Positions 2,982-42,012 of a DNA stretch of 64,000 bases are shown piece after piece. The position numbers and the translations under genes are program-made. The stretch is from Lunularia cruciata. Its lineage: Eukaryota > Streptophyta > Marchantiopsida > Lunulariales > Lunulariaceae. Below the pieces are notes generated by a model. The model was not told the origin of the DNA. It searched no databases and was given only the letters and a program-made list of their open reading frames with translations. The stretch lies in NCBI GenBank assembly GCA_948567375.1, contig OX419762.1, positions 32,741,465 to 32,805,464 of the forward strand. Reading direction: 5' to 3'. Each line of letters opens with the position of its first letter. Positions within the stretch are counted from its first letter, which is position 1.

Positions 2982-3830
2982 TTGGAGAGAACAATTTTTC
3001 AAGAGAAAGAAGATCAACTCCAATTTCCAAAGCCTAAGGCTTTTGAAGGAAAGAGTTTATTAGTTGCAATGGAGAATTTTGTGTTTGATTGTGAGTTTGA
3101 GTGGAACTTTAAAGTTACAAATCTTTTAGATGATTGGAGATGGATCTTCTTGACTTTGAGCCAATTGGAAAGAGTGGCAAACTTTGGTGGTGGTTCCAAG
3201 TAGAATAAGCTCAATGGCAATTTTTTTCCTAATCTTTATGTGGGAAGACTTAGAGTGCAATAATAGGGGGATTCCAAGTAGCAAATGTTATGCAAGCAGC
3301 ACAAGATACATTTACAAAATTGAAATAGTTAGTTTTATGAGGAATTACATAACCAGTTCTAGAACATCATGATGCAAATTCTAAATATCCATGAAGACTT
3401 AGAGTGCAATAATAGGGGGATTCCAAGTAATGAATGTTATGAAATCAACATAAGATACATTTACATAATTGAAATAGTTAGTTTTATGAGGAGTTACATA
3501 ACCAATTCTAGAACATCATGATGCAAATTCTAAATATCCATGAAGGAGAAGTGTTTGATTGGTTCATGAGAGGATTAAAAGCATAAACCAAATTGGCAAT
3601 AACCATGCATGAATGAAAATATCTAGAAGAAACCATGTAATTGCCAAGCACTTTGGTCCTCACAAACCTAAAAACACATCAAGCAAGAGTGGAGGAGCCA
3701 ATGTTAATGGAGACAAATGTCATCCAGTAGACACCACTTGGCACTACAGATGGGGAAAAGTCAAAAGTAGTAGTTGCTTCTATTGTTGCTAACCTACTAC
3801 CAACCAATAAAAATTTCCATTTACTAAAAG
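2982..3830 (+). pseudogene. Decayed Ty3/gypsy gag fragment (family A-like)
   Basis: The reading frame from 2982 contains FPKPKAFEGKSL, then MENFVFDCE and VTNLLDD. These correspond to FPKPKVFEGKNL, VENFVFDCER and ATNLQDE in the gag of the young element at 27.6 kb. Downstream frames contain FMRNYITSS and a decayed counterpart of the young gag segment at 28030-28250. Frameshifts and stops break the frame. No LTR was found to its left, and a copia LTR begins where it stops at 3831. It is therefore a truncated, dead fragment of a chromovirus capsid gene. Confidence 0.7.
3244..3540. repeat. 149-bp tandem duplication inside gag relic
   Basis: The block starting GAAGACTTAGAGTGCAATAA at 3244 is repeated from 3393 with about 90% identity, ending near 3540. 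Both copies encode the same degraded gag segment with FMRNYITSS-like or FMRSYITNS-like peptides. The duplication therefore occurred in the relic rather than being part of the original element. Confidence 0.85.
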
Positions 3831-14514: not shown

Positions 14515-15206
14515 TGTAACACCCATTTGTGCATGTGTGTGGTATTGTGATATTTAGCTTGGTATTACAAGTACTTAAGAGATATTATTTATATAGAGAT
14601 AAAGGATGGTTCTATATTAGTCATGGTTAGCTAAAGTTAGTCATAGCTAAGATAGATGGGACCTTACTTTAGAGGAAGTAGAAAAGATGAGCACCACTAT
14701 TTTGGATTTTAGTGTGTTGACTTGGTATTATTCCTAGGTGTTTGGCTTTGGGGAAAGAGTTGAGAACTCTTGGGCCCGCAAGCCTTTTTGTTTTGGATTC
14801 TTCTTTAGTCCAAGGATAGCCCATGTGAAGGAATCCTTGCTTTAGTGGTTGGGTCAAGATAAGACCACATGCTTAGGGGAATATGCCCATGTGAATGGAT
14901 ATTCCTTTCTACTTTTTGACTTTACTTGACTTTTAGTCTAGTAACTTGAGTTACTACGGTAATTAGTAACTTTGGTACGTAACTATTTCACAAGTATATA
15001 AACAAGGAGTGAGGAGGTACTCATCATCCTTTCATTTGCAACTATCTCTCTCTCATTGAGTTCTCTAGTGAGCAATGTCTTGAGTCTTGGAGTGTTAGCC
15101 TTGGAGGAGTATGATGGAGTTGGGGTTCCTTGCCTTCTTAGTCCATGGTGCGCTACCATAATAGCCATCAGAGGTTCATCCTGAGTGAGAGACAGGCCGG
15201 CTCACA
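14515..15206 (+). repeat. 5' LTR of the intact Ty3 element
   Basis: It starts TGTAACACCC and ends GGCTCACA. A TATA-like AAGTATATAAAC at about 14992-15003 probably drives transcription. A short palindrome GTAACTTGAGTTAC lies just upstream at 14941-14954. It matches 21653-22344 base for base except one site. Confidence 0.95.
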
Positions 15207-15210
15207 TTTT

Positions 15211-15230
15211 TGGTTCCGTTGCCGGGACCT
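15211..15230 (+). promoter_or_regulatory. Primer binding site, tRNA-Asp-like
   Basis: TGGTTCCGTTGCCGGGACCT lies four bases after the LTR. It resembles the plant Tat/Athila-type site TGGCGCCGTTGCCGGGGA, which is complementary to a tRNA 3' end. The exact tRNA was not confirmed. Confidence 0.75.
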
Positions 15231-15247
15231 CTCTAGAAGGCAAGATA

Positions 15248-15418
15248 ATGTTCCGCGTCCAATTCTACATTAGGCAGAAGGAGGCTATGAGAGCTCACTT
15301 GGAGAGAACATTAGGAGAGGAGAGGGCTGAACTTATGTTAGAGAACCAAGATCCATTTGTATACCCTGTAGTTCATTATGATGTCTTTGAGGTGATTTTG
15401 TACATCTTGTACACATGA
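15248..15418 (+). CDS. Leader mini-ORF 1, PFVYP motif
   Basis: The frame is open from 15185, but that start lies in the LTR/primer site, so the ATG at 15248 is preferred (56 aa). The product begins with a basic FRVQFYIRQKEAMRAHLE stretch and ends with DPFVYPVVHYDVF and ILYILYT. The C-terminal part resembles the end of leader mini-ORF 2 (EPFVFPRVDY...VMYILY, 16543-16707). The frame precedes gag-pol in the element's RNA. Function is unknown. It could be an upstream regulatory ORF or a remnant of a duplicated coding region. Confidence 0.4.
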   Translation: MFRVQFYIRQKEAMRAHLERTLGEERAELMLENQDPFVYPVVHYDVFEVILYILYT

Positions 15419-15481
15419 GAGGAATTGGAGAGATTGTGTGAGGTGGATTGCAGATTTTGGGGATTAAGGTGATTTTGGGCA

Positions 15482-15514
15482 AAATCTCAAGTTTGAGATC
15501 TGGACTTGAGATTT
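15482..15514 (+). other. Leader hairpin, 10-bp perfect stem
   Basis: AAATCTCAAG (15482-15491) pairs with CTTGAGATTT (15505-15514) across a 13-nt loop. It lies in the untranslated leader of the intact element, where dimerisation or packaging signals are found in related elements. Its role is unproven. Confidence 0.45.
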
Positions 15515-16042
15515 CTACACATGATAGCTTGGGTTATCTTTCAATTAGCACACTTGAAATTATTGAGAGAGCTTCTATGCGCACTGGGCTAGAATTTTTG
15601 AAAGTTGATAGGGTAAAGTGCTCCCGCAACTGCATGCTCTCTGGAAAATTGTACAGAGTCTGCCATTTCTTCAATGTTTAGTGAATTGTCCTGAAAATTT
15701 CCAAGAAAATTCAGTGCATTGTATCCTACCTGGTGCCACAAAAATTAGAGAGAGATCATTTTTGCGCAGTGCGTTATGAGTTTTTGAAGTGAGGGGGGTG
15801 GTTTTCAGACCAAATCTAAAATATGGGTGCTGAATAGAAAGGTGTCTAGGCCAAATGGCTCGATGAAAAGATCTAAAATTTTGCAGGGAGGGACTCCCTA
15901 GAGTTGTGATCAAGTGTGGAAAATTTCAAAGGACTGTGACATATTAGTTGGGAGATTTGAGTGACATTGTGAGGAAGGGTCAATTCTGCAGAGTGGAGAT
16001 CTCATGCATGAGAAGTTTGAGATCAACAAAAAGCATGTTTGA

Positions 16043-16540
16043 GTGTTTAGATTCATCTTGGGGAACATGGAGAGTCATCAAGAGTGGAAATTGAGATTAT
16101 GCAAGGTTCCCCAAGGGTTTGAGGTGATTGTAGGGGTGGATTTGAGGAAAAGAGAGTTTACAATAGAATTTGAAGAGAGTGTTGAGAGGATCCAAAAACC
16201 TACACCACTTGGAGGAAAGAGTGAGTCTAAGTGCTTTCTATGTGGAGAGAAGGGACATAAGGCAAGTTCATGTCCATTGACCTTTGAGAGCAAGAGATTG
16301 AGGGAAAGGAGAGGCTTACTTGACTTGGGTTTGCATGTTGGACCTTCTTCACCAAGATTGGGAGGGAGAAGATCTAAGACCAAGGAGTTGTGTGAGGTTT
16401 GTGGAGTTGAAGGACTTCCAAAAGGACATGAGTGTAGTGGAGTAAAAGCACTTTTGGAAACTTTGGTGAAGGATCTTGGAGAGAGTCTTAATACAGCTAC
16501 AGAAATACTACCACCTTCATCAGCTAGTTCTCAAGATTAG
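16043..16540 (+). CDS. Extra leader ORF with CCHC zinc knuckle
   Basis: This 165-residue frame lies between the primer site and gag-pol. Near residues 64-77 is a canonical retroviral-type knuckle CFLCGEKGHKASSC (C-X2-C-X4-H-X4-C). Near residues 117-131 a second Cys/His cluster reads CEVCGVEGLPKGHEC. The N-terminus contains KLRLCKVPQGFEVIV and RKREFTIEFEESV. The gag-pol frame has its own knuckle, so this is an additional nucleic-acid-binding ORF, not the normal nucleocapsid. Its stop overlaps the start region of mini-ORF 2 (TAGTGATG). It may be a captured or duplicated gag-like gene. A chance frame is unlikely given the intact knuckle. Confidence 0.6.
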   Translation: MFRFILGNMESHQEWKLRLCKVPQGFEVIVGVDLRKREFTIEFEESVERIQKPTPLGGKSESKCFLCGEKGHKASSCPLTFESKRLRERRGLLDLGLHVGPSSPRLGGRRSKTKELCEVCGVEGLPKGHECSGVKALLETLVKDLGESLNTATEILPPSSASSQD

Positions 16541-16542
16541 TG

Positions 16543-16707
16543 ATGGAGATAATCTTTCAACTTATGGATAAACTATCCATGAGAGTTAGATTAATATGCA
16601 CTCTAGGATTTGATGTTGCTATAGAAATCTTGGAGCAACCTGAACCTTTTGTGTTCCCTAGAGTGGATTATTCTCAGATGGTGTTAGTCATGTATATACT
16701 CTATTAG
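16543..16707 (+). CDS. Leader mini-ORF 2, PFVFP motif
   Basis: A 54-residue frame begins two bases after the preceding stop. It contains LGFDVAIEILEQPEPFVFP, followed by RVDYSQMVLVMYILY. The pattern L-E-x-x-x-PFV-aromatic-P-x-V-x-Y, ending YILY, is shared with mini-ORF 1 at 15248. The start follows the zinc-knuckle ORF so closely that the two may be translationally coupled or parts of one ancestral protein. Function is unknown. Confidence 0.4.
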   Translation: MEIIFQLMDKLSMRVRLICTLGFDVAIEILEQPEPFVFPRVDYSQMVLVMYILY

Positions 16708-16777
16708 TAATAGAGTGAGAGAAAAAAAAAGAGGAAAAAAAAAAATTGAGAGAAAAGAAAGATAGTGAGGGGTTAAG

Positions 16778-19700
16778 ATGGGGAAACTTCCGGTTTTCTT
16801 TGGCAAGGATGGAGAAGATGTGGAGGCCTTTGTGAGAGACTTCAAGAGAGCTTGCATAGGAAACAATGAGAGGAGGAAGAATGAGTGGGCCTCATTATTA
16901 CCAGATTTCTTTGAGGATGCAGCACTTACATGGTATGAGTCAGAATACCAAAAGAGAGAGAGGAGAGAGGGGGAAGAGGAGTCTTGGGAGACTTTGACTT
17001 CAGCACTCATTGAGAACTTTCTTCCTGATGAGAGTTATGAGAGATTGATGAGTGAGGTTACATTTCTCAAGCAAGGAGATGGAGAGAAAGTGAGAGTCTA
17101 TGTGGAAAGAGTGGAAAAATTGGAGTCCAGATTTCGCATAGTGTTGAGGAAGGGTGGGGATGATGTGGAGACTACAATGATTGGCATAGGGGCCATGCTC
17201 ACCAAGAATTTTGTGGGAGGATTGAGACCACAAATTAGAAGCAAGGTGAGATATGAGAAACCTTCTTCCAAGGTTGAAGCTATCAAGATCGCAATTCGTA
17301 TGGAGGAGAGTTTGGAAGGGGATGAAAGTGATTTGGTGGTGAAGGAGGTTGTGCATCCTCCTCAAGGCTACAAGTATGGTGGAACTTCTGATACTTTGGT
17401 GACAAGGGTTGCACCACAAGTAGTAGTTGCTCCAGTTCTTGCACCTCCACCAAAAGATCCACTCCAAACCATCACAGAACAACTTGCGGATCTCAAGATC
17501 AATGTGGTGCAATTATGGGAGAAGAGAGAGGTGGATCAGAATGTAGGGAGAGGGCCTAGGAGTTATGGAAACCATCCATATAGAGGAGGCCAACCAGCCA
17601 ACAATTTCAATGATAGAAATTGTTTTGGTTGTGGGGGAAGAGGCCATATCCAAAGGAATTGCCCAAATTCCACTTACCATGGAGGAAGGGGTTATGAGGG
17701 AGCCAATAGAGGGAAAGAGGGAGGTAGTGAAACCCAAGTGGCTCCTAATCCCAACAAAGGTAAGGGGATAGCATCCATAGATGTGGTTGAGAGCAAGTAT
17801 GAGAAGGGAGAGTGCTCAAACTCCAAGGGTCCTAATTTGGAGCTTTTGGCACAAGAGAAGAAGAGAGCTCATTTTGCAGAGGATGTTCACTCTTCTCAAG
17901 GATTTACTTCAAGCAAGGATACTCCTATGTCTACTAGGAGCACTCGCACCTCAACACCATCAACAACAAAGACTCCAAGGAAGAAGTTGGGGATGGAGGA
18001 CTTCTTGATCTCCAAGCAACAATGGAACTACAATGTGTTGGAGGATGTTGGTAGTCACAAGGCTAACATCACAGTGGGCCAATTAATTGCTTTGAACCCT
18101 ACCTTGAGAAAGGAGCTTAGAGGTGGTTTGAGTTCTACAAGGAGCAAGAAGAAGAAGAAGGCAAAAGTTCCAATATCAATGGGGGTGGTGGATGCCAAGC
18201 CAGCACCATGGGAAGCTTGTGAATATGCCTCCAAGATTGATGTGAGAGTGAATGGTCACAACATCAAGGATGCATTGGTTGATGGAGGATCAGCAGTGAA
18301 TGCCATGTCAGAAAGGTTGATGAAGAAGTTGGGTATGATACCCTCAAGAGCTTCAACATTTGTGGTGAGCATGGCAAACAAGCAACAAGTTCGACCAGTA
18401 GGAGTGATGGATAAGGTGGTAGTTTCAGTTATGGGAGTTCAAAATCTCATGACTTTCCAAGTCTTGAAGGATTCAAGCTATGACTTACTTCTTGGGAGGC
18501 CATGGTTGAGAGCAGCACGCACAACTGATCGATGGCACAAAGGGTACTTAAGGATTGGGCCATCAAACCATAGAGTCACTGTTCCTGTGACTAACACCAC
18601 CAACACCTCACATTCAGATACCCCATCTTCTGATTATTGGGAATCTGATTCAAAAGGAGGAGCTTCAGGTGTGGACACAAGCATGGAAGAGGAGACTTCC
18701 ACGGAGGAGGATGAATCTGAATCTGATTCAGATGTGTATCCTTTGTGTGCTATGGATTTTGCACCTAAGCCAGAGGTTTTGAAGGACCCAGATAAATCAC
18801 CATTGACACTTGAGGAGGTAGAGAGAAGGTTATCTACCCTCAAGTATGGCCCAAATGTTACCAAGGAGGAGAAGGTGAGATTTGAGGAGATTTTCTGCAA
18901 GTTCATCCATGTGTTTGCTTTTAGTTACAAGGATTTGAAGGAAGTCACCTTGGAGGAGCACAAGATAGAGGTGGAGTCACATGCAAGACCAATCCGCCAA
19001 AAGCAACGTCGCATTAGCCCACCAATATCTTTGGTTGTGAAGGAGGAGATTGATAAGCTCAAGGAGGCTGGATTTATCTTTGAGGTGGAGAATTCAGAAT
19101 GGGTGTCTCCAATTGTCATTGTGAAGAAAAAGAATGGCAAGCTTCGGGTATGTGTGGATTACAAGAAGCTCAATGCTGTTACCAAGAAGGACTACTACCC
19201 ATTGCCATTCATTGATGAGATCTTGGAGGAGGTTGCAGGTCATGAGAGGTACAGTTTTGGAGATGGTTATAGTGGATATAACCAAATCAAGATTGCACCA
19301 GAGCATCAACAACTCACCACATTCACCACACCTTGGGGAACTTACGCTTTCAAGGTCATGCCTTTTGGGCTTTGCAATGCTCCAGCCACATTCCAACGGT
19401 TCATGAACAAGGTATTTGAACCTTTCATTGGGAAATTTGTGAGAGATTTCATTGATGACTTTTGTGTCTATGGGAGCAAGGAGGAGCACTTTGAGCACCT
19501 AATCAAAGTCTTGCAACGCTTGGATGAGGCAAATGCATCACTCAACCCAGAGAAGTGCATTTTTGGATGTGAAGAAGGTCTACTTTTGGGGCACATCATC
19601 TCCAAGGATGGAATAGCAGTTGATCCTGAGAAGGTGAGGAAAATCTCAGACCTTCCATTCCCTTCAAGCTTGACAAAGTTACGCCAATTCTTGGGAATGG

Positions 19701-21604
19701 TTGGGTACTATAGGAGGTTCATCTTCTCATTTTCCAACAAGGCTTATGCATTGACCATCTACATGAAGAAGGGTGTAGATTACATGGTGATTTTGGAAGA
19801 CAAGGAGGCTCTCAAAGCTTTTGAGGAGCTCAAGCAATCCCTTGTTGTAGCTCCAATTCTTGCTAAACCTGATTGGAGTAAGCCTTTCATCCTCTACACT
19901 GATGCTTCTAATGTAGCTATAGGATGCACTCTTAGTCAATTAGACCAAGATGGGCATGATCATCCAATAGCTTATGCTAGTAGGCAGATGGTTTCAGCAG
20001 AGAAGAACTACTCTGTCACAGAGAGAGAAGGGTTGGCAGTGATCTTTGGTCTCAAGAAGTTTAGACACTACTTGATTGGAGGGAAAGCCACGATTGTCAC
20101 GGATCACAAGGCTTTGAAGTACATCTTCAACAAGCCTAATGTTGAAGGGAGACTAGCAAGGTGGATGATTCTCTTGTCTGAGTATGACTACACAATTGAG
20201 GATAGGCCAGGAAAGAAACATGCAAATGCTGATTTGTTATCTAGAGCCTATGATCATGATGGAGATGAGCCAGTAGATGATTCCTTCCCAGATGAGGAGC
20301 TCATGACAATCTCAGTCACTCAAGAGGTTCCAATGGAGTACAAGGAGATTGTGGATTTTGTGACAAGAGGTAACTATCCAGAAGGGATGCATGCTAGGGA
20401 GAGGAAGGCCCTTGCAGCAAGATCTAGACCTTACACAATGGTGGATGATATTCTTTTTCACCAAGGAGCAGATGGTCTACTTCGAAGAGCAGTGGGTAAG
20501 GAAGAGTCTATCCTACTCATAAAGGAGTTTCATGAAGGTTTAGTATGTGGAGGACACTTTGCAGGAAAGGTGACTGCTTTCAAGATTCTAGATGCAGGTT
20601 ACCATTGGAGAGGGATTTTCAAGGATTGTCTTGATTATTGCAAAACTTGTCATGTTTGTCAAGCTTTTGCTAGAAAGTCTACATCCACTCCACCACTTAG
20701 ATCAATTCCATTGCTAGGACCCTTTGAGAAGTGGGGAATTGATTTTGTAGGACCTCTCAATAGAACCCCAAGGAACAATCGGTACATTGTGGTAGTTACT
20801 GATTACCTTACCAAGTGGGTTGAGGCTAGACCATTGAGGGATAAGAATGAAGATGAAGTGGGTAGATTTCTTTATGAACGCATTATCACTAGGTTTGGAT
20901 GCCCTTTGGAGTTGGTTTCTGATAGAGGAGGAGAGTTTACAGGAAGCATTACTACAGCCATGCTACGACATTTCTCTATCACACATAGAGTAACTACATC
21001 CTATAAGCCAAATTCCAATGGCTTGGCAGAGAGAACCAATCAGACCTTGTGCATGATGTTGGCCAAAGATGCAGAAATGGAGGGGGCTAAACATCATTGG
21101 GACAAGAGGATTCATGCAGTTTTGTGGGAGTATAGGACAACCATGAAGACTTCCACTGGATATTCTCCATTCCAATTGGTGTATGGTATTGAGTCTACCT
21201 TACCTATTCACTTTGATCTTCCTACCTTCCAAAGCATTCATAGGAGATTGAAGAAAGCACAAGGAAGTGATGCAGAGAAGTCAAGGAAGGATCAACTCAT
21301 GGAGTTGGAAGAGGCAAGAGCAGTTGCTATGGTTCGAGTGGAGCAAGCCCAAAGGAAACAAAAGGAGAGCTATGACAAGAGGCAAGGCAAGAAGAAGGTG
21401 GAGCCTTTCAAAGAAGGTGATTGGGTAATGTTGTTTGATTCCATTCGATTCAAGAGAGTACAAAAGAAGTTTTTGCCTAAGTACTTTGGACCTTTCAGAG
21501 TAGAGAAGGTGTGGGGAAATTACACTTATGATCTCAAGGAGTTGGGAGGAAGACACTTTGATAGGATTAACCATGATAAGTTGAAGATGTACCATAGAAG
21601 GTAG
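16778..21604 (+). CDS. Gag-Pol polyprotein, intact, no chromodomain
   Basis: One uninterrupted frame of 1608 residues encodes all proteins needed for retrotransposition. Domains in order: capsid about 1-270; CCHC knuckle CFGCGGRGHIQRNC near 282; aspartic protease with VDGGSAVNAM near 500; reverse transcriptase about 740-960 with VSPIVIVKKKNGKLRVCVDY and the catalytic FIDDF near 890 (usual form YVDD or FLDD); RNase H with YTDASNVAIG near 1040 and TDHKAL near 1107. Integrase has an H-H-C-C finger (about 1251-1294) and catalytic D1321, D1382, E1418, with D and E 35 residues apart. The end carries a GPF-type motif and no chromodomain. The ATG at 16778 follows an A-rich leader. Confidence 0.95.
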   Translation: MGKLPVFFGKDGEDVEAFVRDFKRACIGNNERRKNEWASLLPDFFEDAALTWYESEYQKRERREGEEESWETLTSALIENFLPDESYERLMSEVTFLKQGDGEKVRVYVERVEKLESRFRIVLRKGGDDVETTMIGIGAMLTKNFVGGLRPQIRSKVRYEKPSSKVEAIKIAIRMEESLEGDESDLVVKEVVHPPQGYKYGGTSDTLVTRVAPQVVVAPVLAPPPKDPLQTITEQLADLKINVVQLWEKREVDQNVGRGPRSYGNHPYRGGQPANNFNDRNCFGCGGRGHIQRNCPNSTYHGGRGYEGANRGKEGGSETQVAPNPNKGKGIASIDVVESKYEKGECSNSKGPNLELLAQEKKRAHFAEDVHSSQGFTSSKDTPMSTRSTRTSTPSTTKTPRKKLGMEDFLISKQQWNYNVLEDVGSHKANITVGQLIALNPTLRKELRGGLSSTRSKKKKKAKVPISMGVVDAKPAPWEACEYASKIDVRVNGHNIKDALVDGGSAVNAMSERLMKKLGMIPSRASTFVVSMANKQQVRPVGVMDKVVVSVMGVQNLMTFQVLKDSSYDLLLGRPWLRAARTTDRWHKGYLRIGPSNHRVTVPVTNTTNTSHSDTPSSDYWESDSKGGASGVDTSMEEETSTEEDESESDSDVYPLCAMDFAPKPEVLKDPDKSPLTLEEVERRLSTLKYGPNVTKEEKVRFEEIFCKFIHVFAFSYKDLKEVTLEEHKIEVESHARPIRQKQRRISPPISLVVKEEIDKLKEAGFIFEVENSEWVSPIVIVKKKNGKLRVCVDYKKLNAVTKKDYYPLPFIDEILEEVAGHERYSFGDGYSGYNQIKIAPEHQQLTTFTTPWGTYAFKVMPFGLCNAPATFQRFMNKVFEPFIGKFVRDFIDDFCVYGSKEEHFEHLIKVLQRLDEANASLNPEKCIFGCEEGLLLGHIISKDGIAVDPEKVRKISDLPFPSSLTKLRQFLGMVGYYRRFIFSFSNKAYALTIYMKKGVDYMVILEDKEALKAFEELKQSLVVAPILAKPDWSKPFILYTDASNVAIGCTLSQLDQDGHDHPIAYASRQMVSAEKNYSVTEREGLAVIFGLKKFRHYLIGGKATIVTDHKALKYIFNKPNVEGRLARWMILLSEYDYTIEDRPGKKHANADLLSRAYDHDGDEPVDDSFPDEELMTISVTQEVPMEYKEIVDFVTRGNYPEGMHARERKALAARSRPYTMVDDILFHQGADGLLRRAVGKEESILLIKEFHEGLVCGGHFAGKVTAFKILDAGYHWRGIFKDCLDYCKTCHVCQAFARKSTSTPPLRSIPLLGPFEKWGIDFVGPLNRTPRNNRYIVVVTDYLTKWVEARPLRDKNEDEVGRFLYERIITRFGCPLELVSDRGGEFTGSITTAMLRHFSITHRVTTSYKPNSNGLAERTNQTLCMMLAKDAEMEGAKHHWDKRIHAVLWEYRTTMKTSTGYSPFQLVYGIESTLPIHFDLPTFQSIHRRLKKAQGSDAEKSRKDQLMELEEARAVAMVRVEQAQRKQKESYDKRQGKKKVEPFKEGDWVMLFDSIRFKRVQKKFLPKYFGPFRVEKVWGNYTYDLKELGGRHFDRINHDKLKMYHRR

Positions 21605-21611
21605 AGAGACC

Positions 21612-21633
21612 TTCACTTTGAGGACAAAGTGAA
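21612..21633 (+). other. 3' hairpin TTTGAGGACAAA next to the polypurine tract
   Basis: TTCACTTTG (21612-21620) pairs perfectly with CAAAGTGAA (21625-21633) over the loop AGGA. It begins seven bases after the gag-pol stop and precedes the plus-strand primer tract. From memory, a similar ATTGAGGACAAT palindrome occurs at this place in many plant Tat/Athila elements, so it is probably a conserved signal. Confidence 0.7.
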
Positions 21634-21640
21634 AACTTAG

Positions 21641-21652
21641 TCCGGGGGTAAA
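21641..21652 (+). promoter_or_regulatory. Polypurine tract of the intact element
   Basis: TCCGGGGGTAAA immediately precedes the 3' LTR start TGTAAC at 21653. This is the expected place for plus-strand DNA priming. Confidence 0.65.
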
Positions 21653-22344
21653 TGTAACACCCATTTGTGCATGTGTGTGGTATTGTGATATTTAGCTTGG
21701 TATTACAAGTACTTAAGAGATATTATTTATATAGAGATAAAGGATGGTTCTATATTAGTCATGGTTAGCTAAAGTTAGTCATAGCTAAGATAGATGGGAC
21801 CTTACTTTAGAGGAAGTAGAAAAGATGAGCACCACTATTTTGGATTTTAGTGTGTTGACTTGGTATTATTCCTAGGTGTTTGGCTTTGGGGAAAGAGTTG
21901 AGAACTCTTGGGCCCGCAAGCCTTTTTGTTTTGGATTCTTCTTTAGTCCAAGGATAGCCCATGTGAAGGAATCCTTGCTTTAGTGGTTGGGTCAAGATAA
22001 GACCATATGCTTAGGGGAATATGCCCATGTGAATGGATATTCCTTTCTACTTTTTGACTTTACTTGACTTTTAGTCTAGTAACTTGAGTTACTACGGTAA
22101 TTAGTAACTTTGGTACGTAACTATTTCACAAGTATATAAACAAGGAGTGAGGAGGTACTCATCATCCTTTCATTTGCAACTATCTCTCTCTCATTGAGTT
22201 CTCTAGTGAGCAATGTCTTGAGTCTTGGAGTGTTAGCCTTGGAGGAGTATGATGGAGTTGGGGTTCCTTGCCTTCTTAGTCCATGGTGCGCTACCATAAT
22301 AGCCATCAGAGGTTCATCCTGAGTGAGAGACAGGCCGGCTCACA
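21653..22344 (+). repeat. 3' LTR of the intact Ty3 element
   Basis: It is identical in length (692 bp) and, apart from one base, in sequence to 14515-15206. It is followed by GGAC, duplicating the four bases before the 5' LTR. Confidence 0.95.
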
Positions 22345-23523: not shown

Positions 23524-26500
23524 GTGCTTGGCGCACTCTCAAGACTGAACGTTCCCCACGACAACGTGGACAACAATGCAAGAAGGATTGTTGAAGAATT
23601 TCCATTGGTGGATTCTATGCAAATGGCTCAAACCCGACTATGGGGATTGAGACAAAAGAATAGCGTACAAGAGTATGTGAAGGCATTTCTGGATCTACAA
23701 GTCACAATAATAGACATGAGTCTAGCAAAGGCTCTCGACAATTTCAAACGAGGGTTAAAGGAGCAGATCCGTCAAGAAGTCATGGTGCAAAATCCTTGCA
23801 CGGTATTTGAAGCCATTGCTTGTGCGGAGAGAATAGCATGAGCATTGGGTGGAGGTGAAGGAGTAGTTCCACCTCAAAATTATTGGGCAGAAATGCCACA
23901 CATGGGTGGACCAGTACTGATGGAATTGGGTAACCTTTGATTTCAAGATCAAGGAGCATGACCGCTTCAAGAGGAGCGTGGACGGGTAGAAGAACAAAGA
24001 GATGGAGTCCCATGAGGAGAAGGAACTTGAGGAGAACAACGCCATCGTTACAATTGTGGCCGTATTAGGCACATATCTACCAATTGTTGCACTTGTCTCC
24101 CTAGAGGCTCTCGGCCTTTGTACAAGCAAGCTTTGAACAACATGGAGAGGAGCATTGAAGAAGAGGAGGTGGAAATCACTTTAGAAAACAAAGATTGCTT
24201 GTAAATGTACCTTGCGGCCTTACTGGCTCAATAATGAAGAAGAGAAGCAAGGGAAGGAAGAAGACTAATGCACAAAGATCCCAAAAGGCAACCTCACAAT
24301 TGATTGTTGTGAATGGAGTACTAGAAGGCAATCAAGTGAGAGTATTAATCGATCCAAGAGCAACAAAGAATTTCTTATCTCGCTCTGTTGCAATAAGATT
24401 GGGAATGGATCTAGAGAGAGATAGGAGTGAAGAAGTAGAGTTGCTTAACAGGCAAACAGAGAGGATTGAATCATTACCTAGACGGGTAACACTCTCTGTA
24501 GGAGAATATCAGGAGGCAATTGAGTAGCGAGTGATACAATTAGCTTGTTATGATGCAATCTTAGGCATGCCATGGATAGAGCATTACAACCCTATGGTAG
24601 ATTGGAGGAAGAAAGTAGTGAGAATCCACCAATGGTCAAGCATTAGGGTTAAAGAAAAATCACCCAGGCAAGATTTGCTCTATATGTCATAGTGACGGCA
24701 ACTGTCTGTAAGACCAATAGATGTTTCAAGGGTTTAATAAGAGAAGTCTAGAGTGCACAACTCGATGAACAAGTTCCCGAGAAATTGAAGGCTGTGGTGG
24801 ATGAATTTCAAGATGTATTTCTTGATGATCTACCCACAAGTTTACCACCAAAAAGGAGAGTAGATCATAAAATTAAGACACTCTCGAGGAAGACACCTCC
24901 TTGTAAGGCCCCATATTGCCTATCACCTCATGAATTGGAGGAGTGTTAGACTCAAATTGAGGAGATGCTACAGAAGGGGTTCATCCCAACCTAGCGTATC
25001 ACCATATGGGGCTCTTGTCTTGTTTAGGGTCAAAGAAGGATGGTATAATGCACATGTGCATTGACTATCAAAGTCTCAACCAACAAACAATGAAGAACAA
25101 ATACTCCTTACCTTGCATGGGTGACCTATTTGATCAACTCCATGGAGCGAGATACTTCACCAAATTGGACTTGCAGAGCGGTTACAATCAAATCCAAATT
25201 GCAGAAGAGGATGTGTACAAAATTGCCTTTTGAACCACGTATGGCCACTTTGAATCAAGTTGGCTACAGATGCATTAGGCGTAGCAATAAGAGCAATCCT
25301 ACAACAAGAATGGCATGATGTATGGCATCCAATTGCATATTTCTCTCAAAAGTTGTTACCAATAGAATGCAACTACCACACCATAGAACAAGAAGAGCTA
25401 GCCATTGTTCTAGCAACCAAGCATTGGAAGCACTATTTGGGCAAGAAGGCATTTTTTAGTAGAGACAGACCACAAACCTCTAGTCTACCTCAAGACGCAA
25501 AAGGATCTATCTTGTTGCCAGATTTGGTGGGCAAAGTGGTGACAATGCTTCAACATGTCAATCACCTACGTGGAATGTAAGAAGCAACTTGCAGATGCAT
25601 TCACCCGCATGCCAATGGCAAATAACTTGGTGGTAGAGGTTAAGATTAACCCTGAATTTTGGCCATAGATTTTGGCTGCTACAAAAACAGATTTGCAAAT
25701 TGTAAAAGCGCAATCATCCAAAGGCGTCACCAGCACCCAAGGACTCACCTTTTGTGATGGCAGATTATGGATCCCAAATGTCACAGAATTATGCACCACC
25801 ATTCTAGCAGAATGTCATGATTTGGCCATTGCAGGTCATGTCGGAATGGACAAGACCTTGGATGTAGTCCAGTGCCATCACTATTGGCCCAAGATGAGCA
25901 ACGACGTGATGGACTATGTGCGCAACTGCTTACTTTGTCAATAGAACAAAGCTTCTAATCAAGCTCCTCTAGGGCTCCTTCAACCTCTCCCCACGCCTAC
26001 CCAACGTTGGGAATAAGTGAGTATGGATCTCATCTATGAATTACCCAAGACCACCTCAAGGTTTGACTCCATCAAGATCTTTGTGGATTGGCTCAGAAAA
26101 ATGATTCATATACGCCCTACCACCAAGGATGTGACCGCTCCACAACGAGCTCAATTATACTTAGATGCAGTCTTCTCTCACCATGGCTTGTCCAAAGTAC
26201 TTATCACCAATAGAGGTACTCAATTCACCAGTTTGTTTTGGCAAACACTCTTTGGTTTCTTCATAGCCAAGTTGGCCATGTCCACAGCTTACCACCCACA
26301 AACAAATGGCCAAACAAAGCGGGCTAATTGCACAATTGAAGATATGTTACGCGGCTTCACCTTAGAAGAGCAAGAAAGGTGGGATACCCTACTCTCGTTG
26401 GTGGAATTTGCTTACAAAAATTCAGTGAATACATCCTCCCAAGTCACTCCATTCTTCCTCATGTATGGTGAGCATCCCTTCACACCTTCTAGCTTGATGA

Positions 26501-26912: not shown

Positions 26913-26981
26913 TGTAACAATATGGAGCTTAGTGACGAAGTTAGTCGGGCTTACGAAGTAGAGAATAAGACAAAATAGCCT

Positions 26982-27215
26982 AGAATATTCTAGAAGCATC
27001 TCAGAAGCTTCTTAGGAAGCTTCCTAACTAGTTAACTTGCGCCCTAAGTAGGTAGCTTCTAGAAGGAAGCTTCTAGAAGCTTCTAACTAGCTTAGCTTGC
27101 ACGCCAAGTAGGCGGCTTCTAGAAGGAAGCTTCTTGAGAAGCTTCCTAGTTAACTTGGCTTGCACTCCAAGAAAGCGGCTCAAGGAAACTTCTTGAGAAG
27201 CTTCAAGGGTCTTGT
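26982..27215 (+). promoter_or_regulatory. Clustered heat-shock-element-like modules in LTR promoter
   Basis: Heat-shock factors bind inverted 5-bp nGAAn modules. At 27065-27084 four modules are perfectly phased (GGAAGCTTCTAGAAGCTTCT). At 26982-26996 three are phased (AGAATATTCTAGAAG). Further pairs lie at 27003-27024, 27125-27143 and 27184-27203. All lie within 260 bases upstream of the TATA box. Three of the four phased modules are preserved in both old LTRs of the family (11178-11192 and 43061-43075). This predicts heat or stress induction. It is inferred, not shown. Confidence 0.6.
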
Positions 27216-27233
27216 ATGCTACCTATAAATACC

Positions 27234-27240
27234 AAGGCCG
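27234..27240 (+). promoter_or_regulatory. TATA box of A-young LTR
   Basis: TATAAAT in CTACCTATAAATACC lies about 95 bases before the LTR end and downstream of the heat-shock-like modules. It is conserved in A-old as TATTTATA on the plus strand (near 42924). Confidence 0.75.
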
Positions 27241-27336
27241 AAGCTCATGCTAGGCATTCGGAGTTTTCCCTCATTCAAGTGTCCCAATGTGAGCTTCCAT
27301 TCTCCTATTTCTCTCCTCGGTTTTGGTCTTTTACAT

Positions 27337-27348
27337 TGGTATCAGAGC
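27337..27348 (+). promoter_or_regulatory. Primer binding site, initiator tRNA-Met
   Basis: TGGTATCAGAGC, a perfect match to the usual plant site, lies one base after the LTR end. Confidence 0.95.
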
Positions 27349-27606: not shown

Positions 27607-28506
27607 ATGGCGGCAATACCGGATGTTATCCTTGCAATGCAACAACAAATCGATCATCTTACTCGATTGTTGGATGAACGAGACCAGCAACGACGAGAAC
27701 AGATAGACAGAGCGCCATATCGAGATGGAGAAGATCGCATTCGATTTCCGAAACCCAAGGTGTTTGAAGGCAAGAATCTTCCAGGCATAGTGGAGAATTT
27801 TGTGTTTGATTGTGAACGTTACTTTGAAGCCACCAATCTTCAAGACGAGCGGAAACAAATTCTCTTGGCTTCTAGCCAATTGGATGGAGTGGCAAAACTT
27901 TGGTGGCGATTTTGAGTAGAAAGAGCTGAACGACAAATTGTTACACCAATTTTTACATGGGCAGAATTCAAGGATACAATACTTGGTCGATTTCAGACTA
28001 TAAATGCCACCCGAGCTGCACAAGATAAATTGGCGGAGTTGAGGCAGATTGGCTCAGTGAAAAGCTACATCACACAATTTCAGAATATCATCATGCAAAT
28101 TCCAGATATCCAAGAAGGTGAAGTTCTGGATCGATTTGTGCGAGGATTGAAGTCACGAACCAGATTGGAGGTGACCATGCGAGAGCCACAGAATGTAGAA
28201 CAAGCCATGCAATTAGCTGAGCATTTTGATTCCTTAGTTGTGACAACTTGGTCTCGACCTCGACCTACACAAAACCCACCAGTACCACGAGTGGAAGAAC
28301 CGGTACCAATGGAGATTGATGCTATCCAACGAAGACCACTTGGCACAGCAGATAGAGAAAGATTACGACAAAATGGAGGTTGTTTTTATTGTCGCCAGTT
28401 GGGGCATCGCATTGCTGAATGTCCACTCAAGAATGGACGACCTCGACAAGTTGCCCAAGTGGAGGTTGTGGAGCGGAATGATCAGGGAAACGAGGAATCC
28501 CAGTAG
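27607..28506 (+). pseudogene. A-young gag, one clear premature stop
   Basis: The capsid frame begins with a coiled-coil-like MQQQIDHLTRLLDERDQQRR. It contains FPKPKVFEGKNLPGIVENFV and SQLDGVAKLWWRF, then a TGA at 27913-27915. The same frame resumes and continues from 28030 to a CCHC knuckle CFYCRQLGHRIAEC near 28381-28420. At the TGA site A-old reads CAA, so the ancestral codon may have been CGA, lost in both copies by opposite CpG transitions. The frame stops at TAG 28504-28506, where A-old has TAT and would run on to a TGA equivalent to 28534-28536. Confidence 0.85.
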
Positions 28507-28561
28507 GAGATTTCGAGCCGCCTACTGGGAGCTTGATTAGTTCCAATGGGATTGAAGGCTC
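28485..28561 (+). promoter_or_regulatory. Programmed -1 ribosomal frameshift signal
   Basis: The heptamer GGGAAAC (28485-28491) sits in the gag frame as G GGA AAC, the X XXY YYZ form. After a 7-nt spacer a perfect 9-bp stem follows: CCCAGTAGG (28499-28507) with CCTACTGGG (28521-28529) and a 13-nt loop. Loop bases GAGCC (28515-28519) can pair with GGCTC (28557-28561), allowing a pseudoknot. The pol frame is open from 28482, right at the site. Slippage by -1 would join gag to pol ahead of the protease. A-old has the same spacing over 54 bases, with the heptamer mutated to AGGAAAT. Confidence 0.7.
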
Positions 28562-31500
28562 AACCTATGCAAGTTTGCTTCACTTGCAAGGTATGATATC
28601 TAATCGGGGTTGTAGAATTTTGGTTGATTCAGGAAGTTCAGAGAATTGCATGTCTATGCAAGTAGCAAAGGAATTGGGTATTCCTATCAAGCCAATGATT
28701 GGAAGTAGTTTGATGATGGCGGATGGTAGAAAGGGTTCTGCATTCCGCACCTTGCATCCTGTTACCTTCAAGAATGGGAAGGAGTATTTGGAGTGTATGA
28801 GGTTTGTAGTGGCACCTCTACACTATGATATCATTCTGGGTCTACCTTGGCTTGAATGTCATAAGGTTCAATTTGATTGGACCCGACACCAAATTCAAGT
28901 ACAACACCAAGGTAGGAATTTCCGATTAGGTTGTCTGGCACCTCTGAGTAAGACACCTAAGAATAGTCAGTCCCAAGATGGGAAGTTTGTCGAGAAGGTA
29001 GCCATAGAGCGAATCTGGAAGGGAGATGAGTCCCAAGATGGGAAGTTTGCCAGGAAGGCAACCATGGAGCAAGCTCGGAAGAGAGATGAGTCCCTAGAAG
29101 GGAAGTTTGTTAATGAAGCAGCCATAGAGCAAGCTTTAGAGGAAGATAAGTCTGTATTCGCAGTGTGGATCAAGCCGATTGCACAAGAACAATCTAAGGA
29201 GGGCCAAGTGCCGCATCAAGCGACGGTTGATCGGATAGTTCAAGAGTTTGCAGATGTGTTTCCGGATGATCTGCCAAAGGGATTACCCTCTGATCGAGGT
29301 ATGCCCTTCAAGATCGAGTTATTGCCAGGGAGTACTCCAGTGAGTAGACCAATCTATCGGCTCTCACCAAAGGAGTTGGAGGAGTTGCAAACAACACTTA
29401 CAGAGTTGTTGGAGAAGGATTTCATACGACATAGTACCTCCCCTTGGGGAGCACCGATACTATTTGTTCCAAAGAAGGATGGAGGACTTCGTTTCTGTAT
29501 TGATTACCGTGGGCTCAATAAGCAAACCGTGAAGAATGCATATCCCTTGCCTCGGATCAATGACTTGCTTGATCAATTAAGTGGAGCACGATACTTTTCC
29601 AAGCTAGATCTTCATAGCGGCTATTGGCAAATTCCTATTGAAGGAGAGGACGTGAAAAAGACTGCCTTTCATACAAGGTATGGACATTTTGAGTAGAGAG
29701 TTCTACCTTTCGGACTCACTAATGCTCCAGCAGTCTTCATGGATCAGATGCATCGAGTGTTGGAGGGGCTATTGGATCAATCTGTGGTAGTGTTCTTAGA
29801 TGATATCTTAATCTATAGTAAGACAGAGGCAGAACACATGAATCATGTGCGAGAAGTCCTAAGACGACTACGACAGTGGAAATTTTATTGCAAGAAGTCA
29901 AAGTGTGCTTTTTGGCAGAAGGAGGTTACCTTCTTGGGTCATAAGATCTCATCAGAGGGGATCAAGATGGAAGAAGAGAATATCAAGGCCATTATTGATT
30001 GGCCTACCCCGAAGGATGCTACCGAAGTACGAGCGTTCAATGGATTGGCCAGTTTTTACCGACGGGTCATCCACTATTATGCTCACGTGGCTGCACCATT
30101 GACTGACCTCTTGGGAAAGAACTCGAGCTTCCAATGGACCACCAAGCATGAAGAAGCATTCCAGAAGTTAAAGCATATGGTGTCTTCAAGACCCATTCTT
30201 CAACCATATGATCCTCAACTACCTTGTGTGGTTGATTTTGATGCTTCTAACTTTGCAATTGGAGTTGTGTTGCAACAAGAATTTCTAGATGGACTACATC
30301 CTATTGCCTTTGTGTCTCGCCGACTAAATATAGCTGAAAGAAATTACTCTGCTCGAGATCGGGAACAACTTGCAATGGTATATGCCACCAAGGTATGGAG
30401 GCATTATCTCTTGGGGAAACAAGTGATCATGCGAACTGATCACAAGCCATTGTTGCAGACCTTACACCTAGAGCACATGAAGAGTCGACATCATTGATGG
30501 GAAGAGCAACTCCAATTGTTCGACATCAAACTTGAGTACAAACCAGGTCGGATCCATGTCATCCCTGATGCTCTATCACGACGACCTGATTTGAAGTCTC
30601 TTCCTCTCATCGCGGTAGCAATTACGACGGTGTCAATTGATCCCAAGGTTCATAACGAGTTTCGGTTAGCCCTACAGCAAGATCCCTTCTTCCAAATGGT
30701 ACACGGTCGTCTAACAGCACGCGACAAGGAATACAACACCTTCTCCTTCAAGGAAGGCCTTTTATTCCATGCAGACCAGATCTATGTTCCAACCTAAGGT
30801 GATCTTCGACTTGTGCGCCTTCAAGAAGCCCATGATTTACCAATAGCTGGTCACATGGGAGTGGACAAGACCTTGGGCACCCTCCAACGCCAATGGTGGT
30901 GGCCCAACATGACACGAGATGTTCGAGACTTTGTCCGATCATGTGAGAGTTGCCAACGGAACAAGGCCAGCAACTAGAAGCCAAGTGGACTCCTTCAACC
31001 ACTCGCCATTCCATCCGCTCGTTGGGAGCATGTGAGCTTGGATCTCATCACTTCCTTGCCAAAGACAAAACAAGGACACACCGCAATTGTGGTGTTTGTG
31101 GATAAGCTTAGTAAGCAAATCCACTTGGCACCAACCTGTGATACCGTGGATGCTCCAACCTTAGCACAAATCTACTTTGACAATGTCTTCAAGCATCATG
31201 GGATGCCACGTGTACTCATCTCCGACCGTGATCCTCGATTTACCGGGAAGTTTTGGCAAGCACTCTTCCAGATACTCGGCACCAAGCTTGCTTTGTCCAT
31301 GGCCTATCATCCTCAAACTGATGGACAAACCGAACGCGCCAATCGTACATTGGAGGATATGTTGCGGGCCTTTGTCAATGTCCACCATACCAACTGGGAT
31401 GAATGTCTTGTAGCTACAGAATTTGCCTACAACAATTCCAAACAGGCAAGCACTGGATTTTCTCCCTTCTTTCTCAATTTTGGCCAAGATCCGCTTGTTC

Positions 31501-32117
31501 CAGATTCTCTTCTTGCTCCCCCTCCCTCTCAGGTTCCTCATACTTCTACATTCTTGACAACTATATCCCAATCTCTCCAACAAGCCAAATCTCACCTCCT
31601 TGTTGCTCAGAATCGCCAAAAACAATATGCAGACCATCATCGTCGTGATCTCACCTTTGAAGTTGGTGATAAAGTCATGCTATCCTCTAGTAACCTCCCT
31701 CTCCCACTTGATACCCAAGTTCGTAAACTTGCTCCTAATTGGATAGGACCCTTTGATATCACCCACATTATCTCTCCTGTTGCTTATCGTCTTGCCTTAC
31801 CTTGTCACATGCGTATCCATCCTGTCTTGCATATTTCCAAGTTGAAACCCTTTGTTCCTAACCCTTCTTCCTTTTCCTCTCAAGTCCAACCTCCCCCTCT
31901 TCCTGTCCCTATCAATGATCATGAGGAGTACAAAGTTGATCGTATCCTTGCGCGTCGCCATATTCAACGAGGCCGTCACCAACATACGGAGTACAAGGTC
32001 CTTTGGAAAGGGTATCCCCTTCATGATGCTACATGGGAACCTCTTTCTCACCTCCAGAATGCACAGATGGCCATCAAGGAATTCGAAGCTTCACTGGTGA
32101 CGAGGACGTCACCAACT

Positions 32118-32129
32118 AGCGGGGGAATA
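32118..32129 (+). promoter_or_regulatory. Polypurine tract of A-young
   Basis: AGCGGGGGAATA directly precedes the 3' LTR start at 32130. It lies inside the pol coding frame. Confidence 0.7.
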
Positions 32130-32552
32130 TGTAACAATATGGAGCTTAGTGACGAAGTTAGTCGGGCTTACGAAGTAGAGAATAAGACAAAATAGCCTAG
32201 AATATTCTAGAAGCATCTCAGAAGCTTCTTAGGAAGCTTCCTAACTAGTTAACTTGCGCCCTAAGCAAGTAGCTTCTAGAAGGAAGCTTCTAGAAGCTTC
32301 TAACTAGCTTAGCTTGCACGCCAAGTAGGCGGCTTCTAGAAGGAAGCTTCTTGAGAAGCTTCCTAGTTAACTTGGCTTGCACTCCAAGAAAGCGGCTCAA
32401 GGAAACTTCTTGAGAAGCTTCAAGGGTCTTGTATGCTACCTATAAATACCAAGGCCGAAGCTCATGCTAGGCATTCGGAGTTTTCCCTCATTCAAGTGTC
32501 CCAATGTGAGCTTCCATTCTCCTATTTCTCTCCTCGGTTTTGGTCTTTTACA
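32130..32552 (+). repeat. A-young 3' LTR
   Basis: It matches 26913-27335 except for two bases (CCTAAGCAAGTAG here versus CCTAAGTAGGTAG). It is followed by the target duplication GATGG. Confidence 0.95.
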
Positions 32553-39778: not shown

Positions 39779-40781
39779 TGTAATACCAAGGGTTAGCCAT
39801 ATGATCTAGATGTGAAATTTGGTTTGGTAACATCTAGAATGATGTTATACATGATGGTCAAAATAGATTAGATAGAAGTATCACCAAAAGAGTACTTCTA
39901 CAAATAGGGCAGAAACTGAAATAGACTTGAGAACCTTAGAACCAATAGCTAGACATATGATTTAAAGGTGATAATTGGTTTGGTAACATCTAGAATGATG
40001 TTATACATGATGGTCAAAATAGATTAGATAGAAGTATCACCAAAAGAGTACTTCTACAAATAGGGCATAAACTGAAATAGACTTGAGAACCTTAGAACCA
40101 ATAGCTAGACATATGATTTAAAGGTGATAATTGGTTTGGTAACATCTAGAATGATGTTATACATGATGGTCAAAATAGATTAGATAGAAGTATCACCAAA
40201 AGAGTACTTCTACAAATAGGGCAGAAACCAAAATAGACTTGAGAACCTTAGAACCAATAGCTAGACATATGATTTAAAGGTGATAATTGGTTTGGTAACA
40301 TCTGGAAGGATGTTACACATGATGGACTAAACAGATCAGAAAGAGGTATCACCAAAAGGGGATTTCTACTAATAGAGTAGGAACCAAAATATGCCTTAAA
40401 TCTTTGAAGGCAATTTCGGAGGCCTAAATGGATGAATTAGGCCTCAAAAATAAGCTTTGTCTCGTCGAGAGCTTTCCAACGGTACCTTACTCACATGATT
40501 TCGAGATTCCTACAAGAAGATTCCCTAAAAGATTCTCTCCAGTCAAAGCTTGTTTGACCAACCAGATAGGACCTAGACCAGACAGGTCACCCATCCAAGT
40601 AAGTAATCCAAGGGTGGAGCTTGTTGAAATGTCACCTATCTGTGTCCCTAATCCTATGGTAGAGCTTCCTTGGAGGAGATCCTCTTTGTCTATATAATAA
40701 AGAGAAGGTGCTCCCTTGGGGCATCGAATGTTGAGTGTGCAATCTGTGCTTTCTCTCTTCTCTTGTCCTCAGAGTATTACA
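39779..40781 (+). repeat. B2 3' LTR, enlarged
   Basis: At about 1000 bp it is longer than the usual ~735 bp, because an internal 156-bp unit is present four times instead of two. A G/C-tract region near 40447 has been lost. It ends AGAGTATTACA and is followed by CATGA. Confidence 0.9.
39831..40298 (+). repeat. 156-bp tandem units inside an LTR
   Basis: The start CATCTAGAATGATGTTATAC recurs at 39831, 39987 and 40143. A diverged fourth unit CATCTGGAAGGATGTTACAC begins at 40299. The spacing is exactly 156 each time. The first three units are nearly identical, so the amplification is recent. Other B LTRs have only one CATCTAGAATGATG-type and one diverged unit. Confidence 0.9.
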
Positions 40782-42012
40782 CATGATAAGATATTTAGCT
40801 TGCAAGTGAAGCAAATTTTCATAGGCTGAGCCTTCAATCCCATTGGAACTAATCAAGTTCCTAGTAGGCAACTCAAAATCTCATATTGAGGTTCATCATT
40901 TCCTTGATCATTCTGCTTCAAAAATTCCATTTAGCCAACTTGTTGAGGTCACTCATTCTTTATTTGAGACTTAGCAATATGATGTCCAACTTGGTGACAA
41001 TAGAAACATCCACCATTTTGATGCAATCTTTCATGATCTGTTGTGCTAAGTGGTCTTTGTTAGATGGCATCGATCTCCATTGGTGTTGGCTCTTCCACCC
41101 GTGTGTAGTGTATGGGTGGGTTCAAGGAGAGCCAAAGTCAAGACCAAGTTGTTATAACCAAGGAATCAAAGAGCTTAGTTAACTGCATGGCTTCCTCCAC
41201 GTCCTTGGGCTTATGCATAGTTAATTCCACTTTGGTGCGTGACTTCAAGCCCCTCACAAAGCGATCTAGAGCTTCTCCATCTAGTATATCTGGATTGCAT
41301 GATGGTGTTCTAGAATTGAGTGATATAGCTTCTTATATAGCCAATCTGCTTCAATTCTACCAATCTATCACATGCAACTTGTGTGACATTTATGGCTTAG
41401 AACCGCCCAATTATTGCACTCTTGTATTCTTCCCATGTCAAGATTGGCATAACAAATTTCCGCTCAGCTCGTTCCACTTGGAATTGCCACCATAGTTTTA
41501 CCACTCCATCTAATTGGCTTGAGGCAAATAGAATTTGTTTCCTTTCATCTTGAAGTTTTGTTGCTTCAAAGGAACGTTCACAATCAAACAAAAAAATTTC
41601 CACTACATTAAGAAGATTTTTGCCTTCAAATACCTTGGGCTTTGGAAATTGGATTCACTCTTCTTCTTTACAAACTGGTGCTCTCTCTACCTACTCTTGT
41701 CATTGACGGTCTTATTCATCCAACAATTGAGTAAGATGCTCAATTTGTTGTTGCATAGTAAGGATAACTCCGGGCATTGCCGCCATGGCTACTACTTTAT
41801 CACACTATCCCCAACTTATCTAATTTATTAAATACATAGATGCAAAACGTCCACCGTTCTCCATAAGTAACAAGAAAAAGCATCAAATGTTCCTTAGAAA
41901 AGGTAATCATATGAAAAGAATCTTGCCCAAAGCGTGAGATGATGAATTGGGTGAAATGATGCTTGGATAGTTCTTGGACACAAAAATCTCAATGGTTTGG
42001 CGGAAGTGGATT
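40782..42012 (-). pseudogene. A-old gag, decayed
   Basis: Minus-strand frames read FLFDCERSFEATKLQDERKQ, then SQLDGVVKLWWQFQVERAER near 41450-41600. A decayed CCHC knuckle CFYCHQVGHHIAKS lies near 40985-41020, followed by the gag-pol junction at 40860-40920. The order is the same as 27400-28600 of A-young. Over the 54 bases spanning the frameshift site the two copies align without gaps. It is bounded by B2 on the left and the solo B LTR on the right. Confidence 0.85.

Follow-up and report, generated by a model that had tools for sequence, protein, structure and literature searches.

The gag-pol junction of a chromovirus found in Lunularia cruciata contains an 80-nt stretch that is, judging from its sequence and from that of its relatives, very probably a programmed -1 ribosomal frameshift signal making Gag-Pol. 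The element lies within a 64,000-nt stretch of contig OX419762.1, hereafter called the window. Its gag and pol frames are offset, and a slippery heptamer, a short spacer and a stem are found at the place where they overlap. The same arrangement is present in recently inserted copies, and both frames have coding character.

Organization of the element and of its gag-pol junction

Between its LTRs, which differ by 2 mismatches, the element carries gag, protease, reverse transcriptase (RT), RNase H and integrase in this order, with a C-terminal chromodomain, as is the case for chromoviruses of the Ty3/gypsy type (Table 1). It is surrounded by a 5-bp target-site duplication, GATGG. The gag product comprises a capsid-like domain and a CCHC knuckle. 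The pol domains were assigned with Pfam, and the chromodomain was recognized by its match to solved chromodomains. Y, W and Y of this chromodomain are aligned with identical residues of a CDYL chromodomain, and presumably belong to the aromatic cage. The primer-binding-site-like sequence TGGTATCAGAGC is presumably of the initiator tRNA-Met type. The window copy is broken, with one internal TGA in gag (27913) and four stops in pol (29694, 30495, 30795 and 30975). Counted from the heptamer, pol has a length of 1236 codons, and its first ATG, at 28593, is situated upstream of the protease core. The whole element has inserted into an older chromovirus. The two flanking parts of the latter correspond to one continuous copy near 39.5 kb.

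Other repeats were observed in the window. A separate Ty3 element at 14515-21952, with LTR stretches (14515-14814 and 21653-21952) that are 100% identical, has an uninterrupted 1611-aa gag-to-integrase ORF (16769-21604) and no chromodomain match; in this recent element, located near the two-frame one, a single frame is used. At 39781-40392, a 300-nt stretch is matched three times at 156-nt spacing, corresponding to a 156-nt tandem repeat. A gag remnant of a further related family occupies 3008-3760 and includes a 149-nt direct duplication (3244-3392 and 3393-3541). A heptamer followed by a 7-bp stem at 3753, in this remnant, was rejected as a chance occurrence, since it is located before any zinc knuckle and in a decayed frame.

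Table 1. Coordinates, in the window, of the element, its junction and the related junctions
Feature	Position	Strand	Remarks
5' LTR	26913..27335	+	TG...CA, 423 nt
Primer-binding-site-like sequence TGGTATCAGAGC	27337..27348	+	adjoins 5' LTR
gag ORF	27607..28506	+	ATG 27607, TAG 28504-28506; 299 codons plus stop
pol	28482..32195	+	-1 frame relative to gag; end stop 32193
3' LTR	32130..32552	+	423 nt; overlaps end of pol
Conserved block	28479..28532	+	almost no non-deamination divergence among older copies
Slippery heptamer G_GGA_AAC	28485..28491	+	gag-frame codons CAG GGA AAC
Spacer	28492..28498	+	7 nt before 9-bp stem
Stem 5' arm	28499..28507	+	holds gag stop TAG 28504-28506
Loop	28508..28520	+	13 nt
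Stem 3' arm	28521..28529	+	exact reverse complement of 28499-28507
Second-family junction	24183..24233	+	AGAAAAC 24183-24189, 7-nt spacer, gag stop TAA 24202-24204, pol -1
A-old junction	40860..40920	-	same -1 offset, gapless alignment; seen as inverted repeat

The heptamer in the gag frame, the 7-nt spacer and the perfect 9-bp stem, as described in the original prediction, can be read directly from the letters, and the position assigned there to the whole unit (28482-28561) is correct. Pol, which had been described as open exactly from the heptamer, is indeed in the -1 frame but is open one codon earlier, from 28482. The junction is organized like a retroviral-type -1 signal, in which an X_XXY_YYZ heptamer, read in the zero frame, lies within the overlap and is followed by a stem 5-9 nt downstream. 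The heptamer had also been rightly presented as functional elsewhere, G_GGA_AAC being named among the most shift-prone sequences (PMC5009743). The stem gains a tenth pair from 28498/28530, giving 10 bp with a 6-nt spacer.

To estimate the contribution of chance, we considered heptamers made up of three identical bases (XXX), followed by AAA or TTT and by a final base other than G, and looked for a Watson-Crick stem 5-9 nt on with a loop of 3-20 nt. Both strands of the window contain 313 such heptamers, and the one at 28485 alone (1/313) is followed by a stem of at least 9 bp, with 5 having at least 8 bp and 11 at least 7 bp. In 2.56 Mb simulated from local composition, a stem of at least 9 bp was obtained at 3 of 6139 heptamers. 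The probability that heptamer and stem occur together by chance is very low.

Folding of the isolated 44-nt hairpin gives -18.8 kcal/mol with a z-score of -3.05, and the 81-nt stretch has a z-score of -2.12. In the 81-nt fold, another helix, 28496-28502/28547-28553, beats the hairpin by 1.8 kcal/mol. Since this competing helix is absent from the folds of short stretches of the second family (see below), we favour the hairpin as the predicted structure. The suggested 5-bp pseudoknot (28515-28519 with 28557-28561) can indeed pair, and does so in 42 to 50 of the 52 older rows defined below, mostly through unchanged letters lying partly in the search pattern, but the second family gives it no support.

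Conservation and decay of the junction among copies

The genome (566 Mb, 74 contigs) was searched for copies of the element. The 25-mer 28533-28557 has 6958 matches with at most 2 mismatches, and the reversed control has 0; the family is very numerous, with thousands of copies. Ninety loci were read, namely 30 of the best 40 matches to the window copy (40 of 4942 candidates scored), 30 of the best 40 matches to A-old, an older copy in the window (40 of 5316 candidates scored), and the first 30 exact 25-mer matches on contig C1. The window copy (L001) and five near-identical neighbours of L049 (L050-L053 and L060) were left out before the counts. Rows less than 3% divergent were called young; there are 32 of them, representing 31 distinct copies, as L066 is the same place as L012. 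The older set comprises 52 rows, including A-old and two near-identical neighbours, L038 and L039, and is biased, since 25 rows were picked because they resemble A-old and 27 because they match 28533-28557 exactly. On contig C1, at ~12.67-13.43 Mb, several near-identical old copies (L049-L053 and L060) are found ~70-180 kb apart, an array that looks like segmental duplication rather than transposition.

The young copies display a well preserved junction. GGGAAA is present in all 32 rows, as GGGAAAC in 28 and GGGAAAT in 4. Since the C to T change in the latter gives TGA as the first codon read in pol after slippage, the last base of the heptamer is constrained by both frames. All 10 pairs of the extended stem are kept in 27 rows and a single pair is lost in the other 5 (9 pairs left), while the gag stop is TAG in 31 rows and CAG in 1. 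A net frame change between 28420 and 28620 is absent in 32/32 rows (31 distinct copies). The original prediction, relying on the gapless alignment of A-old, held that the offset is not a private indel, and this is borne out by the other young copies, 31 of 31 of which keep it. One-frame relatives, named there as evidence that would speak against the signal, do not occur among the young rows. Stops were surveyed in 35 rows, i.e., the 30 best matches including the window copy, plus L061, L066, L070, L078 and L090. The TAG at gag codon 300 is common to 34 of these, and the other gag stops recur in few rows or in one. Gag is open to its stop in 2/35 rows and the stretch of pol that was read (524 or 638 codons) is open in 10/35, with no row having both fully open.

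The most frequent changes in older copies are C to T or G to A. They have strongly affected CpG and CHG sites, on either strand, with a mean of 61% of copies changed per CHG site. This pattern, seen in L031-L060 and L061-L090 over 28000-29450, is the footprint of DNA methylation and deamination. Counts were made on non-deamination differences common to at least 5 of the 52 older rows. Upstream gag has 98 such differences in 485 nt, of which 65 are at gag third positions. For pol, 12 of the 28 differences in 28611-29000 and 24 of the 42 in 29001-29400 are at pol third positions. This distribution, marked in gag up to the heptamer and leaning to pol further down, indicates that both frames are or were translated.

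At the junction itself, not one such difference was counted among the 52 older rows, either in the overlap 28485-28506 or in the whole block 28479-28532, and 28507-28610 has 4. The divergence rate of the block is 0.017 versus a mean of 0.073, though not uniquely so, since 10 of 1152 other segments are equally low in the 52 rows (0/1152 in the 25 A-like rows and 53/1152 in the other 27). The gag third-position rate falls to 0.029 in 28479-28506, versus 0.13-0.21 in larger bins, and the pol third-position rate to 0.013 in 28507-28532, versus 0.05-0.09. When pol third positions are scored in 45-nt bins, 28507-28551, which is partly inside the search pattern, is the lowest of 20 (0.009), and the next ones are 29317-29361 (0.015) and 28777-28821 (0.017). 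These comparisons show a conservation of the junction that exceeds what coding predicts.

The frame relation at the junction is kept in 39 of the 51 readable older rows. GGGAAAC or GGGAAAT is found in only 12 of the 52 older rows; many older copies carry AGGAAAY, and A-old itself has AGGAAAT and an eroded stem. At 28485, A is present in 33 rows and C or T in 4. The G to A change is expected at this position, because CAG 28483-28485 is a CHG site. On the other hand, only 5 older rows show the corresponding decay on the other side of the site (C to T at 28483). Decay alone may therefore be an insufficient explanation of the A, which may already have been present in some older source copies. In a tree of 82 copies, constructed from non-deamination sites and leaving out copies with at most 1000 readable bases, G at 28485 is dispersed over the clades and is also found in one of the deepest pair, which would fit an ancestral G. 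The 27-mer is otherwise intact in 211 copies, and a hand count of the first 100 gives CAG in 74, CAA in 22 and TAG in 4. Within the family, stem pairing is no better than after shuffling (461/520, against 457 on average; 256/2000 shuffles reach this value). In the proposed check of conservation and covariation, heptamer and stem were seen to be kept in young copies, within-family covariation was not detected and the first heptamer base varies in older copies.

A second chromovirus family and protein relatives

A second, distantly related family is represented in the window by the older chromovirus at ~22.4-26.9 kb, whose gag and pol likewise overlap with a -1 offset. Three copies, i.e., this one and two others (L091 and L092), could be aligned with the first-family junction, and both families have AAC as the A-site codon, four codons to the gag stop and a 7-nt spacer. 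The 5' arm at the stem position is decayed in the window copy, where the stem is not formed. L091 and L092 possess an 8-bp stem at the place homologous to the first-family stem; 8 pairs at a fixed start, G-U allowed, are reached by chance in ~0.9% of simulated sequences. As isolated structures, these stems are not unusually stable (z-scores of -0.83 and -1.29). A search pattern for the second family, with RR at two variable bases, one R in the last gag codon and the rest fixed, has 249 genome matches. By hand count, the first 100 contain GGAAAAC (G_GAA_AAC) in 92 cases, GAAAAAC in 6 and AGAAAAC in 2. In other viruses, G_GA is described as a naturally occurring P-site variant, or intermediate motif (PMC5009743).

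The stem was compared between families using six sequences, three per family, and 500 shuffles, which ignore relatedness. Pairing is observed in 97.9% of stem cells, and 7 cells are changed on both sides, a value as high as which was reached in 0/500 shuffles. Sliding the stem arms reduced pairing to only 21-52%. Of the five measures, two remain within the ordinary range, namely the double-change pairs (3; 77/500) and the further pair types (5; 457/500). Two compensatory changes, C-G to G-C and G-C to A-U, separate the families, and a third changed pair, which varies within the second family, is decay-like. Covariation of the stem thus appears good but not broad, as it consists of one contrast between two families. 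Within the second family, no covariation was detected, A-C mismatches being close to the expectation under independence (15/78). The pair counts, made by hand on 78 of 415 matches, are G-C 25, G-U 19, A-U 19 and A-C 15, and these changes look like methylation-type decay.

Relatives were then sought among proteins. The start of pol has 788 protein matches; among the best 120, the four closest over most of the length (P0001, P0005, P0006 and P0007), which are 43-48% identical, begin within or just before the protease. The gag domain PF03732 is found together with RT in 10 of these best 120, the top one being ranked 30th, indicating that single-frame elements occur in other lineages. Queries with gag yielded 57 distinct relatives, two from Klebsormidium nitens and the others mostly unnamed. 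None of the 57 has a protease among its listed Pfam domains (7 of the 57 were rescanned). For one-frame gag relatives, which had likewise been named as contrary evidence, this is a partial test, because the length limits of 343 and 532 aa exclude whole gag-pol fusions. No DNA-level relatives outside this genome were found in viral contigs or genome contigs.

As in both families, the gag end N-x3-Q is present in 31 of the 57 relatives, and 27 of the 57 have E-N-x3-Q; for comparison, a final Q is seen in 4 of the best 120 pol matches. A few of the 31 ends may be coincidental. Among the 26 gag relatives without N-x3-Q, 18 are weaker matches (P0158-P0177). P0133 and P0135 were left out of the alignment of gag relatives, and their ends were counted. 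P0124 and P0012 come from contigs of identical length (17,020), as do P0148 and P0015 (67,994), which suggests a separate gag and pol on one contig per pair. We lean slightly towards a scenario in which a cassette made of G_GRA_AAC, a 7-nt spacer and a stem whose 5' arm contains the CAG-UAR gag end would be ancestral in a chromovirus lineage extending from streptophyte algae to land plants, with [E/G]-N-x3-Q at the gag end as its protein footprint. The window family would then have changed G_GAA_AAC to the canonical G_GGA_AAC.

Proposed mechanism, alternatives and significance

According to the proposed mechanism, most ribosomes would translate gag through to the TAG at 28504-28506, and a minority would be held by the stem while GGA and AAC occupy the P and A sites. 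The held ribosomes could slip back one base on G_GGA_AAC, the tRNAs re-pairing, and would enter the pol frame with CGA as the next codon, resulting in Gag-Pol. We infer the slippage, its efficiency and the tRNA re-pairing step from this arrangement.

Alternatively, pol could have its own start at a downstream AUG, reached by re-initiation or internal initiation, and the overlap would be incidental. The gag stop and pol overlap by just 25 nt, and the ATG at 28593, before the protease core, is present in 29/32 young rows, as would suit such a start. This ATG is, however, missing in 14 of the 51 readable older rows, and in 9 of these its middle base has changed from T to C, a change other than the usual decay. 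In the second family, the pol frame of L091 and L092 contains no ATG between the heptamer and the position equivalent to 24258, whereas an ATG is present in the window copy. Since separate initiation would also leave unexplained the conserved synonymous sites and the stem, both upstream of the ATG, we consider it improbable. A fusion of the gag and pol frames by splicing, in some of the transcripts, is very improbable: although this is known in plant Ogre elements (PMC6317226) and the ~175 nt between the zinc knuckle and the protease core offer room for a short intron, the heptamer, the spacer and the stem common to two families would have no explanation.

The offset could also be a fixed ancient indel, with pol supplied by other elements and with heptamer and stem being a coincidence. 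The fact that gag and the pol stretch are both open in 0/35 rows is in line with this reading, which we nevertheless find scarcely credible. Indeed, the terminal gag TAG is common to 34/35 rows whereas other gag stops are sporadic, the third-position lean in pol suggests that the pol frame has been under selection, the arrangement is retained in the second family, and heptamer plus stem are very unlikely to coincide by chance.

The programmed -1 signal that we prefer, in agreement with the original prediction, resembles retroviral -1 gag-pol sites of the G_GGA_AAC class and the -1 sites of animal LTR retrotransposons, with the same succession of heptamer, short spacer and stem and pol in the -1 frame (PMC5009743), but the host of the window element is a plant. 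Sroscv4 and Sroscv5, LTR elements of the choanoflagellate Salpingoeca rosetta, in whose names we read "cv" as chromovirus, differ in that they are non-plant and have a 6-bp motif, with no stem described in the excerpts of PMC6875170. In plants, most LTR element groups are described with Gag and Pol in one ORF (PMC6317226). Beet chromoviruses of the Reina, Tekay, CRM and Galadriel clades are, like this element, Ty3 elements with a chromodomain, gag, protease, RT, RNase H and integrase, but their gag and pol form one continuous ORF (PMC3605345). The +1 arrangement of sireviruses and of one other type of two-frame plant element is not the one found here, where pol is in the -1 frame. A chromodomain with an aromatic cage characterizes the Tcn1 clade. 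Such a cage is also reported in Chlamyvir and Galadriel (PMC6317226).

The original prediction considered a single gag-pol frame as common among plant chromoviruses, which holds for beet (PMC3605345) and Selaginella (PMC3350952), but a two-ORF element, SM-Tcn1, had been described in 2010 (PMC2864245). This Tcn1-like chromovirus of Selaginella moellendorffii has 5704 bp, 440-bp LTRs and two ORFs, with a gag of 323 aa and a pol of 1238 aa that includes protease, RT, integrase and chromodomain (PMC2864245). It is similar in size to the window element, with its 423-bp LTRs, 299-aa gag and 1236 pol codons. On the other hand, the excerpts of PMC2864245 report no primer-binding site for SM-Tcn1, and most members of the Tcn1 clade are self-priming, without a tRNA primer-binding site, whereas the window element has TGGTATCAGAGC. 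The word frameshift has 0 occurrences in the main text of PMC2864245 on SM-Tcn1, and, in the excerpts of PMC12786077, ribosomal frameshifting is named only as a general strategy. Our search of CC-licensed PMC papers, as represented by their excerpts, found no report of a -1 signal in a plant chromovirus.

Collectively, the frameshift mechanism is classical and of a known kind, and the host group and the shared gag ending seem new. Since most plant LTR groups are described with one ORF, the way in which Gag is kept in excess is a live question. If our reading is true, the -1 signal would give one plant lineage the retroviral answer to Gag excess, and the gag end N-x3-Q would constitute a simple handle for finding such signals in other genomes.
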